From positions 1-22,114 of IMG/VR virus record IMGVR_UViG_3300017952_000118: 22,114 nt of DNA; one strand, given 5' to 3'. Positions 9,691 through 22,114 of this stretch are shown here, one piece after another. Origin of the DNA: a virus. Both the position numbers and the translations under genes were made by a program. A model generated the notes under the pieces. That model made no database searches. It saw nothing but the letters and a program-made list of their open reading frames with translations, and was not told the DNA's origin. Numbering within the stretch: the stretch's first letter is position 1; each line of letters opens with the position of its first letter.

Positions 9691-10398
9691 ATGGCATTAC
9701 CAAAGTTGAATGTTCCTCGTTATTCGGTAAATTTACCGTCTACTGGGAAAAAATTAAGTATGAGGCCTTACCTTGTAAAAGAGGAAAAGGTATTAATGAT
9801 AGCATTAGAGTCAAATGACGTTGTTCAGATCTCGAATGCAGTGAAGGATGTTATTCAGTCTTGTTATGATATTGATGATATGGACGAATTAACAATGTTT
9901 GACATTGAGAAACTGTTCTTAGACTTACGCGGTAAGTCTGTTGGTGAGAATATGGATATCAAGATTAAATGTAAGTCTTGTGATCATATGACACCAGTAA
10001 CAGTTAATGTTGACGATGTTAATGTGTCTAACCTAGATCAAGACAGAGTTATTATGTTGGATGAAAAAACCGGTGTTGGTGTGAAGATGAGATATCCCAC
10101 AGTAAAGACACTACAAGGTGTGAATCCAGAAAAATTAAATTCTGTTGAAGGTGTAATGGAAATAATTGGTAGTTGTATGGATACCATCTTTGATGAAGAC
10201 AATGTTTATGATGTTTCAGGAGAATCGAAAGAGTCTATCCTTGATTTTATTGATACCCTTAGTGGTGATCAATTTAGAAAAATCCAGGGATTCTTTAAAG
10301 AATCTCCAGCTATAGTATATGGCAGTAAGTTTAAGTGTGAGTCCTGTAAAGAGGAAAACGAGTTTGAGCTCAAGGGTCTAAACAGTTTTTTTTCATAG
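9691..10398 (+). CDS. 26: Baseplate hub/tail assembly protein gp26, zero-frame product
   Basis: A 235-aa protein of the T4 gp26-type baseplate family (T4 gp26 is 208 aa). Two CxxC pairs, Cys94/Cys97 (KCKSCDH) and Cys216/Cys219 (KCESCKE), probably bind one zinc ion as a split ribbon. The region between them has an acidic helix and MRYPTVKTLQGVNPEKL. The start is supported by AGGAG six to seven bases upstream; the same 14-base module AGGAGAATATAATG precedes the gene at 13308. The last codons are AGT TTT TTT TCA TAG. A slippery run there, with spacer and hairpin, suggests that part of translation shifts to -1 and adds 65 residues. The place just before a tape-measure candidate is where frameshifted tail assembly chaperones lie in many tailed phages. 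Confidence 0.85.
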   Translation: MALPKLNVPRYSVNLPSTGKKLSMRPYLVKEEKVLMIALESNDVVQISNAVKDVIQSCYDIDDMDELTMFDIEKLFLDLRGKSVGENMDIKIKCKSCDHMTPVTVNVDDVNVSNLDQDRVIMLDEKTGVGVKMRYPTVKTLQGVNPEKLNSVEGVMEIIGSCMDTIFDEDNVYDVSGESKESILDFIDTLSGDQFRKIQGFFKESPAIVYGSKFKCESCKEENEFELKGLNSFFS

Positions 10399-10414
10399 GT
10401 CTCTCGCATGAGAG
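10386..10414 (+). promoter_or_regulatory. Probable -1 ribosomal frameshift signal at the gp26 end
   Basis: In the zero frame the sequence reads AGT TTT TTT TCA TAG. Positions 10386-10392 form T-TTT-TTT, a canonical X-XXY-YYZ heptamer. An eight-base spacer (10393-10400) is followed by a hairpin: CTCTC at 10401-10405, loop GCAT, GAGAG at 10410-10414. The -1 frame after the heptamer is open for 65 codons and has no start codon before its 20th codon. All three elements are seen; frameshifting itself is inferred. Confidence 0.72.
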
Positions 10415-10589
10415 CTTAACAAATTATTATCAAACTAACTTTGCCTTAATGCAACACCATAGGTATAGTTTGACAGAGTTAGAAGAGATGATGCCATGGG
10501 AGAGACAGATATACATTGCGCTTCTACAACAGTACATTGAAGAAGAAAACCAAAAGATAAAGTCGAAAAAAGGCTTTAAGGGGTTATAA
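10392..10589 (+). CDS. -1 frame extension of gp26 (gp51-position domain)
   Basis: Reading in -1 from 10392 gives 65 residues, FIGLSHESLTNYYQTNFALM then HHRYSLTELEEMMPWERQIY and a Lys/Glu-rich helix. The MPWERxIYIxLL helix looks like genuine phage protein and resembles the C-terminal parts of frameshifted tail assembly chaperones; in T4 order this is the gp26-gp51 junction. The only in-frame ATG (10449) lies 20 codons in, lacks a ribosome site and would cut off the conserved NYYQTNFALMQ part. The stop TAA (10587-10589) directly touches the ATG of the next gene. The gp26 fusion would be 299 aa. A separate short protein from a non-standard start is the alternative. Confidence 0.72.
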   Translation, partial: FIGLSHESLTNYYQTNFALMQHHRYSLTELEEMMPWERQIYIALLQQYIEEENQKIKSKKGFKGL

Positions 10590-10910
10590 ATGACAGAAGA
10601 AGTTAAAAGTAATTATCATCCGGCTGATACAAACGGAGATGGTAAAGTATCGAAAGAAGAAGAAAGAATGTACTTAGAGTTCAGAAGAAAAGAACTCGAA
10701 GATATGGATGCAATGAGGGATGCACAACGCTCTATGGCATGGTTTGCACTTTTTGGAATGTTATTATATCCATTTGCCGTAGTATTAGCATCTTTATTTG
10801 GATTAGAAAAGGCATCAGATATTCTCGGTGATATGGCAGCAACGTACTTCGTTTCAGTTGCAGCAATCGTTGCAGCGTTCTTTGGTGCTCAGGCTTTTAC
10901 TAAAAAATAG
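10590..10910 (+). CDS. EF-hand membrane protein, unknown function
   Basis: A 106-aa protein with one canonical calcium-binding EF-hand loop at residues 13-24 (DTNGDGKVSKEE, ligands Asp13, Asn15, Asp17, Lys19 carbonyl, Ser21, Glu24). A charged helix follows, then two membrane segments at residues about 50-72 (AWFALFGMLLYPFAVVLA) and 83-103 (ATYFVSVAAIVAAFFGAQAF). The loop lies on the same side as the N-terminus, with both ends probably on one face of the membrane. It starts directly at the stop of the frameshift product and precedes the tape-measure candidate. I recall similar proteins, unnamed, in marine T4-like genomes. Its late, tail-gene context suggests a virion or lysis-time membrane role; that is inference. 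Confidence 0.82.
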   Translation: MTEEVKSNYHPADTNGDGKVSKEEERMYLEFRRKELEDMDAMRDAQRSMAWFALFGMLLYPFAVVLASLFGLEKASDILGDMAATYFVSVAAIVAAFFGAQAFTKK

Positions 10911-12903: not shown

Positions 12904-12930
12904 AAAAAAGGGAGCTTAGTGCTCCCTTTC
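12902..12930. terminator. Bidirectional rho-independent terminator
   Basis: GGGAGC at 12910-12915, loop TTAGT, GCTCCC at 12921-12926. On the plus strand it follows the tape-measure stop directly and is followed by TTTCCTT. On the minus strand it is followed by eight T (12909-12902), a strong signal closing the 13308 gene after its frameshift extension. The convergent genes share it. Confidence 0.85.
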
Positions 12931-12931
12931 C

Positions 12932-13048
12932 TTAATATTCGCATTCCTCAGGATTCTCAGAACAATATTCTTGTATTTGTTTAATTAATACCTTAATATC
13001 GATTTCATTATCTTGCCTTTTCCCTCTGCGTGAGAAAAGGATTAATCC
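12932..13048 (-). CDS. -1 frame extension of the small exported protein
   Basis: Shifting to -1 after CCA AAA AAG gives 38 residues, GLILFSRRGKRQDNEIDIKV then LIKQIQEYCSENPEECEY, ending in TAA at 12934-12932, two bases before the terminator. This frame has no ATG, GTG or TTG anywhere between its upstream stop and its end, so it cannot be started independently in the usual way. The acidic, Cys-containing ending looks like protein. The combined product would be 125 aa. The coding sense of the extension is an inference from the shift signal and composition; it is too short to be sure by itself. Confidence 0.6.
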   Translation of the reverse strand, partial: GLILFSRRGKRQDNEIDIKVLIKQIQEYCSENPEECEY

Positions 13049-13054
13049 TTTTTT
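13016..13054 (-). promoter_or_regulatory. Probable -1 ribosomal frameshift signal (A AAA AAG plus hairpin)
   Basis: On the minus strand the zero frame is CCA AAA AAG GAT TAA. Positions 13054-13048 are A-AAA-AAG, the most efficient bacterial -1 slippery heptamer. A seven-base spacer GATTAAT (13047-13041) leads to a hairpin: CCTTTTCTC (13040-13032), loop ACGCAGA, GGGAAAAGG (13024-13016), nine pairs including one G-U. All elements have textbook spacing. Use in vivo is inferred. Confidence 0.72.
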
Positions 13055-13308
13055 GGTTCTTGCAATTCGTCAGTTTGTTTGTCAACTTCATCAGCAACTG
13101 TATCAACTACACCTACGGTAGTATCAACTGCAACTGTTGCAACAGAAACAACATCATCAGCTACTGCACCAACGATTGTTCTGGAACCTTGAACAGCCCC
13201 ATCAACAACACCTGTAGTGAATTGCTTACCGCCTTCAATGACTGCTCCTACTGATGCGCAACTAGCAGCAAAAACCAATCCGACGAATATAGAAAATAAT
13301 GCTTTCAT
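13042..13308 (-). CDS. Small exported or lipoprotein-like protein, Val/Thr-rich
   Basis: An 88-aa zero-frame product beginning MKALFSIFVGLVFAASCASV, a clear signal peptide. Cys17 after AAS could be a lipidation site, but the lipobox is weak. The mature part is a run of Val-Val/Asp-Thr units (GVVDGAVQGSRTIVGAVADD, TTVGVVDTVADEVDK) likely to form an amphipathic or membrane-associated stretch, ending in EPKKD. Similar small proteins occur in marine T4-like phages without known function. It has AGGAG six bases before the ATG, a late promoter at 13374-13367 and is a single-gene late unit. A frameshift signal at its end would replace the final Asp by 38 further residues. Confidence 0.78.
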   Translation of the reverse strand: MKALFSIFVGLVFAASCASVGAVIEGGKQFTTGVVDGAVQGSRTIVGAVADDVVSVATVAVDTTVGVVDTVADEVDKQTDELQEPKKD

Positions 13309-13361
13309 TATATTCTCCTATGCATAGGTTAATTCTGATAAAGGTTAACTTTATCCCCAAT

Positions 13362-13379
13362 TATCTTATTTATAAGATA
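13362..13379 (-). promoter_or_regulatory. Late promoter TATAAATA within a perfect palindrome
   Basis: The minus strand has TATAAATA at 13374-13367, the T4 late consensus. It is embedded in a perfect inverted repeat, TATCTTAT-TT-ATAAGATA (13362-13379). The predicted start near 13361 gives a leader of about 50 bases to the ATG at 13308. Whether the symmetry matters is unknown. Confidence 0.72.
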
Positions 13380-19932: not shown

Positions 19933-20451
19933 CTATCTTTTACTGCAATTCCTCTTGGCTCTATCATATACCTTCAGATTGTTATGGACTACAATTGAGG
20001 TTATTATTGTTGTAGGCATAAGAACCTCATCTGTAATTAAGCCTCTTCGGTCTATCTCAGGTAATAGATTACCGAATATGAAGGTTTTTAAAAGTATCAT
20101 TTCGCGAACTTCAGGTACCCTTGGTAATAAAGGATTCATTTCATATACACAATCGTAAGCGAGGGCTCTTTTGGTAGACCAGATATCTCCAGCTTGAGCC
20201 AGAAAAAATAATGTCCAGGTAGCTAAGCTGGCAGGATCCTCCTCTGTTATTTTTATATCATTTAATATATTAGATTCAATAATGTATATTTCAGGGGATC
20301 TGTGTCTTTTTATATATTCTTCGTTATATGGTGCATAATACCCAGCATCAAATAATACCTTTCTTTGAGGAGATATATCTGCTTGTACTGAAGTACTTAT
20401 AAGAAGTATTCCAAGTATTAATTTATTTAGTTGTAGCAATAAAGACTCCAT
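19933..20451 (-). CDS. Secreted or membrane small protein next to the cyclase
   Basis: A 172-aa protein with a signal peptide, MESLLLQLNKLILGILLIST and SVQA before a likely cleavage at DIS. The second half resembles an uncharacterised phage and bacterial domain (DUF5658-like by eye): TWTLFFLAQAGDIWSTKRAL followed by DCVYEMNPLLPRVP, where a Asp-x-x-x-Thr helix and Glu-x-Asn-Pro-Leu are the marks, then hydrophobic helices. The C-terminus is basic. The start lies 29 bases inside the cyclase coding end, so the two are co-translated. The role is unknown; it could be a periplasmic or membrane partner of the cyclase, which is inference from the overlap only. Confidence 0.78.
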   Translation of the reverse strand: MESLLLQLNKLILGILLISTSVQADISPQRKVLFDAGYYAPYNEEYIKRHRSPEIYIIESNILNDIKITEEDPASLATWTLFFLAQAGDIWSTKRALAYDCVYEMNPLLPRVPEVREMILLKTFIFGNLLPEIDRRGLITDEVLMPTTIITSIVVHNNLKVYDRAKRNCSKR

Positions 20452-22114
20452 CCCAATCCTTCGGTAAATCTTGCGTTTTCATATATTCGCAACGCTCTAT
20501 CCACATATCATAATAGTTATCCATTTTACCATCAAACTCACCTTTTAAATCATTACAGAATTTTATAGCCATATCAAATTGTTGTGATCTATATAACTCA
20601 TGCATCTTATTATGTGTATCTTGTCTTGAGGGCCAATCTGTATTATGCCATGCCCAAAACCATGTATCTAAAACTGTATAAATCCCTATACCAACACTCT
20701 TACCTTTTACTGCAAGATCATCAATCTTAAGGAAAAAGAAATCCTCCTCACATTGTTTTACAGTAGATTCACCAACTAATAATAAGCAACCATACTCTTT
20801 GCATTTAGATTCTATTCTTGCTGCTGTGCTAACTGCATCTCCTAAAACATCATATGAATGCCTGCTTGTACTTCCCATTTCTCCAAGGTAACCCAAGCCA
20901 CTATTAATTCCAGCACCCATACCAATCGGAGGTCTACCTTCGGCTGTGATTTTTTCATTAAACCTCTCCACTGCCTTTAACATATTGAGTCCAGTTTGGA
21001 CTGCGCTCTTTGGATGATTTGGGTCATCATTTGGAGCATTATGGACATGCATACTAGCATCACCAATATACTTTATAATCATACCATCTGCATTCAATAC
21101 TGGTTGTGTAATAGCATCCATATATTCGTTCATGAGTTTAGTTAATCCCTTTACATCATCACCAAAGGATTCTCCCAATGGGGTAAATCCTCTTAGGTCA
21201 GAGAAGCATATAGAAATTTCCCTTTTCATACCGTCTTTAATTAATGATGGATTTTCTTGTAACATACGAACGACTGTTGGAGAGCAATATCCTGCAAACT
21301 GTTTTTGTATTTCTTGTCTAAGTTTAAATTGAACCCAGAAGTTATTAAATGAAGCAGATGCGAATGATATTATAAATATTAGTATGACTATAGTTGGGGA
21401 AAGAAGTATTCCAAAGTTAGTCCAAGAATACCAGAATCCTCCTAAAACACCAGAAGATAAAGATATAAAGGTAATTAATGATGCCCAAAGTGGAAGATAA
21501 TATACACCCAATACAATCAAAAGAGATCCAATTAGAGTTAGACCTATTTCCAATAGAGATCCATATATCGGACGAGAAATTGATTGATCCGATAATATTG
21601 TCTGCAGAGACATTGCCTGAAGATGATGAGCTGGAAGAAGACCAACCGGTGTTGCTATCTGAGAAGCTACCCCACTTGCAGTTAGACCTACAATTATAGT
21701 TTTACCTTGTAGGTTAGGAAGAGTATCAACCCCATACTCATATCTTTCAAATTCATAATTGGTATTTAACCATATAGATCCATTTGCATCTGTAGGTATT
21801 TGAAATGGTCTCAATATAATTTCTTCGATTCCTAAATCATTTACCTTAATCGTATATGATGGTTTCTCGTTTAATATTCTGATTGTCTCTAAAGAAAATG
21901 ATGGATATAATTCATTATTAATCTGAGATAGAAGAGGAATCCTTCTTGTAACACCATCAACTTCTGGCATACCATTTATTAATCCCACACCCCAAGCCTG
22001 TTCTTCGATTATAGGAATATTTGTTACGAGTCCATTATATCGTATTGCCCAATCAAGAGGATCACCAGTACCAAACACAGCGGTACCTACATAAGGAGCC
22101 TTTTCACTTCTTCC
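20423..22114 (-). CDS. CHASE2-type membrane class III nucleotide cyclase (partial at right edge)
   Basis: The frame is open to the window edge; 563 residues are seen and the start lies outside. Numbering here begins at the codon at 22078. Residues 1-165 are the C-terminal part of a CHASE2 extracellular sensor (AWGVGLINGMPEVDGVTRR and LQGKTIIVGLTASGVASQ). Three membrane helices follow (about 173-245). The cyclase domain spans about 285-470: metal Asp294 (ICFSDLRGFT) and Asp340 (KYIGDASM), base-selecting Lys336 and Asp410 (SYDVLGDAV), catalytic Arg421 (AARIE). Lys and Asp predict ATP as substrate. The usual Asn four residues before the Arg is Ser417. A helical tail ending DWDGVFIATTK is typical of CHASE2 cyclases. 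It probably makes cAMP in response to a periplasmic signal. Confidence 0.9.
   Translation of the reverse strand, partial: GRSEKAPYVGTAVFGTGDPLDWAIRYNGLVTNIPIIEEQAWGVGLINGMPEVDGVTRRIPLLSQINNELYPSFSLETIRILNEKPSYTIKVNDLGIEEIILRPFQIPTDANGSIWLNTNYEFERYEYGVDTLPNLQGKTIIVGLTASGVASQIATPVGLLPAHHLQAMSLQTILSDQSISRPIYGSLLEIGLTLIGSLLIVLGVYYLPLWASLITFISLSSGVLGGFWYSWTNFGILLSPTIVILIFIISFASASFNNFWVQFKLRQEIQKQFAGYCSPTVVRMLQENPSLIKDGMKREISICFSDLRGFTPLGESFGDDVKGLTKLMNEYMDAITQPVLNADGMIIKYIGDASMHVHNAPNDDPNHPKSAVQTGLNMLKAVERFNEKITAEGRPPIGMGAGINSGLGYLGEMGSTSRHSYDVLGDAVSTAARIESKCKEYGCLLLVGESTVKQCEEDFFFLKIDDLAVKGKSVGIGIYTVLDTWFWAWHNTDWPSRQDTHNKMHELYRSQQFDMAIKFCNDLKGEFDGKMDNYYDMWIERCEYMKTQDLPKDWDGVFIATTK

Follow-up and report, generated by a model that had tools for sequence, protein, structure and literature searches.

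The window analysed here, a 22,114-nucleotide stretch of viral DNA, carries genes for T4-like structural and replication proteins, and gp32 adjoins a small lipoprotein locus on the minus strand. An element resembling a T4-like late promoter (TATAAATA, 13367–13374, minus strand) lies about 60 nt 5′ of the ATG, and an AGGAG ribosome-binding site occupies positions 13315–13319 on the same strand. Among 114 loci, such a promoter-like element occurs at most 200 nt upstream in 14, against about 0.025 expected per locus. The gene itself (13308–13042, minus strand), recognized as an open reading frame (ORF) and through its homologues, encodes 88 amino acids with a signal peptide and a cysteine at position 17 (Cys17). 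Its final codons, CCA AAA AAG GAT TAA, hold a slippery heptamer, A_AAA_AAG (13054–13048), in phase and 3 nt ahead of the 0-frame stop. A 7-nt spacer, GATTAAT (13047–13041), includes that stop (TAA, 13044–13042) and is followed by a predicted stimulatory hairpin of 9 bp with a 7-nt loop (13016–13040), a prediction based on folding and on covariation in relatives. In the stem, CCTTTTCTC (13040–13032) pairs with GGGAAAAGG (13024–13016), one of the nine pairs being U-G.

Read in the −1 frame, the same strand encodes an extension of 38 codons (GLILFSRRGKRQDNEIDIKVLIKQIQEYCSENPEECEY, 13048–12935) that includes the motif YCSENPEEC and ends at a stop codon (12934–12932). ATG, GTG and TTG are all absent from these 38 codons. 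An intrinsic terminator stem, AAAGGGAGC/GCTCCCTTT (12907–12929, minus strand), comes next and is followed by a run of T nucleotides. Peptides of the −1-frame tail include QDNEIDIK and the end EYCSENPEECEY. The original prediction, made from this sequence alone, had described the in-phase heptamer, the spacer and the hairpin at the end of the 88-aa gene, and a Cys-containing −1 tail that lacks a standard start and stops just before the terminator; all of these were located where it had placed them. It had also called the product an exported protein with a signal peptide. The signal peptide stands, but the protein is more exactly described as a lipoprotein than as merely secreted, with Cys17 invariant in a 15-row alignment of the family (alignment A7).

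We searched IMG/VR with the 88-aa protein, which returned 80 loci, and this set grew through independent searches with a profile of the protein and with one of its tail. When all fetched loci were scanned with a profile, 310 homologous ORFs were recovered; these have 123 distinct 3′ ends and come from marine viral contigs. An in-phase slippery heptamer is present in 97 of the 123 ends (A_AAA_AAG in 77, G_GGA_AAG in 17 and C_CCA_AAA in 3), always 0 or 3 nt from the stop codon. As for joint conservation of heptamer and −1 peptide, which had been proposed as a check, all 97 of these ends have an open −1 tail, 31–74 codons long, with a Cys motif of the form Tyr/Phe-Cys-X5-6-Cys (most commonly YCSxNPKEC). 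Both heptamer and tail are missing from 22 of the 26 remaining ends, where a terminator or another gene comes next. Fisher's test of this association gives 3e-27, for relatives that are not phylogenetically independent. The last three codons of the 123 homologous genes contain 102 such heptamers, compared with 29 in about 11,285 other codon positions, and of 82 Lys-Lys pairs at the 3′ end, 77 are encoded by AAA-AAG and none by AAA-AAA. Furthermore, every locus returned by a search with the extension alone has the lipoprotein upstream in another frame. The possibility that assembly or sequencing indels have split a single ORF, which metagenome contigs and a homopolymer at the junction might invite, is negligible, since 97 distinct 3′ ends, drawn from many samples, show the identical offset, homopolymer-free G_GGA_AAG sites among them, and no motif-bearing relative is fused in frame.

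Three lipoprotein queries against 50,697 phage records gave no usable match (weak matches in Vibrio phages, with E of at least 0.7, were dropped), and scans of the joined products against Pfam, PHROGs and NCBIfam gave only weak matches on helical or low-complexity stretches. Bacterial genomes yielded no match to the lipoprotein and one to the extension, on a contig of a metagenome-assembled genome (L320) that has this lipoprotein together with its heptamer and −1 tail and is probably a viral piece within a mixed assembly. A Cys-motif match at L311 was rejected as a chance match, because it belongs to a different downstream gene.

Selection on the tail was estimated as pN/pS from 31 disjoint ungapped pairs. 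The ratio is 0.254 (0.195–0.311) in the −1 frame, where it is still 0.285 with the Cys motif left out, whereas the two remaining frames give 1.14 and 1.62; substitutions at the three codon positions number 104, 63 and 215. By these measures the extension is under purifying selection. The original prediction had named in advance three outcomes that would count against it, namely a heptamer, a −1 reading or a selection on the extension found wanting in the homologues; we examined all three and saw none of them.

Since an in-frame ATG, GTG or TTG precedes the Cys motif in 82 of the 97 tails, the extension could instead be a separate small ORF, translated from an internal start or by re-initiation. 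However, the window has no such start, and the first eight codons hold one in only 3 of the 97. When only codons ahead of the first possible start are considered, pN/pS is 0.318 (0.22–0.41), compared with 1.06 and 1.57 in the other frames. As selection thus holds before any possible start codon, the selected reading would enter at the heptamer and not at an internal start. A separate ORF also leaves the conserved heptamer unexplained, and we regard it as very improbable. Standard gene callers are expected to miss the tail, since it lacks its own start codon close to the junction.

RNA structure downstream of the heptamer, at a spacing of 5–9 nt (typically 6–7 nt between stem and heptamer in the relatives), is conserved, with weak folding in some lineages. 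In 32 non-redundant representatives, the 50 nt 3′ of the heptamer fold with a mean z of −2.19, compared with −0.58 further downstream and −0.15 upstream; a minority of representatives (L209, L278, L264 and L282) fold weakly in these first 50 nt. Among twelve close relatives, 5 of the 11 stem pairs have changed on both sides. Stem cells are paired in 91.6% of cases versus 80.5% after shuffling, a value reached by only a few of 500 shuffles and by none of the slid versions of the stem. For example, L054 and L056 share the stem TTCTCC...GGAGAA, but its closing pair is G-C in one of them and A-U in the other. Stems are also found in lineages of unrelated sequence, such as GCCATTC/GAATGGC in L093 and L099, and CCTTTTCTCT/AGAGAAAAGG in L258.

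Most sites contain a run of 6–7 A nucleotides, which raises the alternative of transcriptional slippage, in which the transcript would gain or lose a base as RNA polymerase copies the run, so that part of the mRNA joins the two frames. However, the runs are too short in the 17 G_GGA_AAG and 3 C_CCA_AAA sites, and homopolymers at which transcriptional realignment occurs are often eight nucleotides or longer (PMC3711429). Slippage by the polymerase also fits poorly with the preservation of the in-phase X_XXY_YYZ form and of a hairpin at a set spacing, and we consider it improbable. The heptamer type varies among relatives, yet each type remains a predicted tandem-slip site. It is highly probable that this phage-encoded lipoprotein is subject to programmed −1 ribosomal frameshifting and that the frameshift is conserved. 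The earlier suggestion of two forms of one protein made by −1 frameshifting is supported by the comparisons of homologues, selection and hairpins.

The direction of the shift is not universal, because four loci (L159, L168, L223 and L239) retain the complete tail in the +1 frame and so need a +1 or −2 shift. Their genes end in GAA or GAC GAA followed by AAG AAG TAR, which forms the site GAA_AAG_AAG_TAR, at which tRNA-Lys could re-pair from AAG to AAA two bases upstream. The tail in the +1 frame has pN/pS values of 0.18 and 0.25 in two pairs, indicating purifying selection. These patterns suggest that the shift direction has switched in this branch. Shift direction also interchanges among phage tail and coat genes (PMC5009743), which the switch resembles. 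Other relatives (L240–L243, L246, L247 and L297) have lipoproteins beside gp32 without heptamer and tail, and represent natural short-form-only relatives.

Familiar phage frameshifts yield tail chaperones, virion extensions or transposases. The lambda tail assembly chaperones gpG and gpGT (PMC5009743) share with the present case a −1 slip close to the 3′ terminus of a small phage gene and a C-terminally extended form made in the minority, but the gene described here lies outside the tail genes and encodes an exported lipoprotein, and the Pfam, PHROGs and NCBIfam scans of the joined products found no match to tail-chaperone families. The −1 frameshifts of dnaX and IS elements use the same heptamer, A_AAA_AAG, and a downstream stem-loop. 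Here, by contrast, the 0-frame stop is adjacent, the protein is a different one, G_GGA_AAG and C_CCA_AAA are also used, and the frameshift product is the longer form, whereas in dnaX it is the shorter one. Capsid and tail extensions in T3/T7, A2 and Listeria phages (PMC5009743) are likewise optional C-terminal modules with variable shift direction, but they add an Ig-like domain to a virion protein rather than a short helix and a Cys pair to an envelope lipoprotein. The frameshift has as much support as comparative sequence can give, and it puts a known mechanism to a new use. We found no prior description of such a frameshift in the papers searched.

The homologues carry LPSC, AQGC or SGC as lipobox, to which the AASC of the window is a weaker match, and the residue following the lipid-attachment Cys is Ala or Ser. 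Under the usual sorting rule, Ala or Ser at this position means an outer-membrane protein that faces the periplasm, and we therefore infer that both forms are so placed. An AlphaFold2 (AF2) model of the tail in the window has a helix at residues 10–33 and then a turn, with block means of 96 and 91 in the second half and an overall mean of 79; the model of the lipoprotein is uninformative (pLDDT 55). The tail cysteines, which flank an Asn-Pro turn, could form a disulfide or touch a similar motif in a neighbouring secreted protein. In 36 of 47 relatives, that secreted protein has a YCDNNPxxC motif, like that of the frameshift tail.

In many tail-bearing relatives, the lipoprotein gene stands in a cluster with the order FecR-like protein, curlin-repeat protein, small membrane protein, lipoprotein, secreted protein and CHASE2 cyclase. 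The FecR-like gene is upstream in 33 loci and the curlin-repeat gene in 46, the small membrane protein is found in 49 and the secreted protein in 47, and the cyclase is present in 64 and lies downstream in nearly all of them. CsgG and FecR are also found on larger contigs. Pelagiphages have been reported to carry this cluster, the viral type VIII secretion (curli) cluster (PMC7029224, PMC9599517), with the same genes for CsgG, curlin-repeat proteins, FecR and adenylate cyclase. Searches of both papers turned up neither a lipoprotein nor a frameshift, and cultured HTVC008M and Methylophilales phage Melnitz differ from our loci in that the curli cluster is present but the lipoprotein gene is absent.

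The window itself holds two members of the cluster, about 7 kb from the lipoprotein gene: a CHASE2-type adenylate/guanylate cyclase (20423–22078, minus strand), incomplete at the window edge, and a secreted protein of 172 aa (19933–20451, minus strand) whose homologues in relatives stand between the lipoprotein and cyclase genes. The cyclase has a best-match identity of 58–62% to cluster members and is 57% identical to the Melnitz cyclase, while best matches to the secreted protein are about 31–46% identical. In a second lineage (L135 and others), the lipoprotein lies between gp43 and a nuclease, with CHASE2, CsgG and FecR elsewhere on the contig.

An obligate link between the extension and curli or cyclase was considered and rejected: no CHASE2 or CsgG was found on the 80- and 110-kb contigs of L074 and L093, which have the tail, and L248 has CHASE2 and CsgG but no tail. 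The frameshift could be real and yet serve a role unrelated to the curli module, for example in excluding other phages at the host envelope or late in infection. The gene lies beside gp32 in the window, beside gp43 and a nuclease in the L013 group and beside capsid-type genes in the L075 group, some lipoprotein-bearing contigs are without curli genes, and the late-promoter-like element precedes the window gene. On the other hand, about half of the distinct loci have the lipoprotein within the curli cluster, and among the several lineages in which it lies outside, the cluster is often found elsewhere on the contig (L135, L052 and L020). We judge such a separate role to have a little less than an even chance. 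That the lipoprotein's role is tied to the curli/cyclase module is a tentative proposal, to which we would give somewhat lower odds.

The sequence features suggest the following mechanism. Most ribosomes would end at the 0-frame stop and make a short, lipid-anchored helical protein. The hairpin and the adjacent stop codon would stall the ribosome, and a minority would shift one base backwards, the two tRNAs moving in tandem, and add a charge-rich tail of about 30–74 residues that forms a helix and then the Tyr-Cys...Asn-Pro...Cys turn. Slippage would thereby set the ratio of short to long form. In the simplest reading, as with gpG and gpGT, the long form would be a minority adaptor among an excess of the short protein. 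Its partners might be a curli component or exporter, the secreted Cys-motif protein encoded nearby, or the cyclase through its CHASE2 domain, although these are guesses. Taken as a whole, a conserved frameshift that yields two forms of a lipoprotein is in our estimation quite likely the best explanation, with the long one perhaps an adaptor of the curli module. The fully specified version, in which the frameshift determines how much of each form is made, the long form couples phage curli secretion to the CHASE2 cyclase and one branch has switched to +1 or −2, is unlikely to hold in every part.

If the frameshift is confirmed, it would constitute a widespread family of frameshifts on an exported lipoprotein, and viral curli clusters would gain a further, previously unreported component made in two forms. 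The family also offers natural variants for studying how frameshift sites evolve, with three heptamer types, a switch of direction, and 22 ends without site and tail.

The window contains one other candidate site, a T_TTT_TTT heptamer at position 10386 on the plus strand, 3 bases ahead of the stop codon of a gp26-like gene (9691–10398), and this is probably the first −1 signal of the original prediction. From it, a −1 frame of 65 codons (10386–10592, plus strand) runs into a gp51-like ORF that has its own ATG. Nearby, a 106-aa protein (10590–10910, plus strand) has an N-terminal EF-hand-like stretch, DTNGDGKVSKEEE, followed by two hydrophobic segments, and a relative of this protein also lies near the gp32-type locus of L297.
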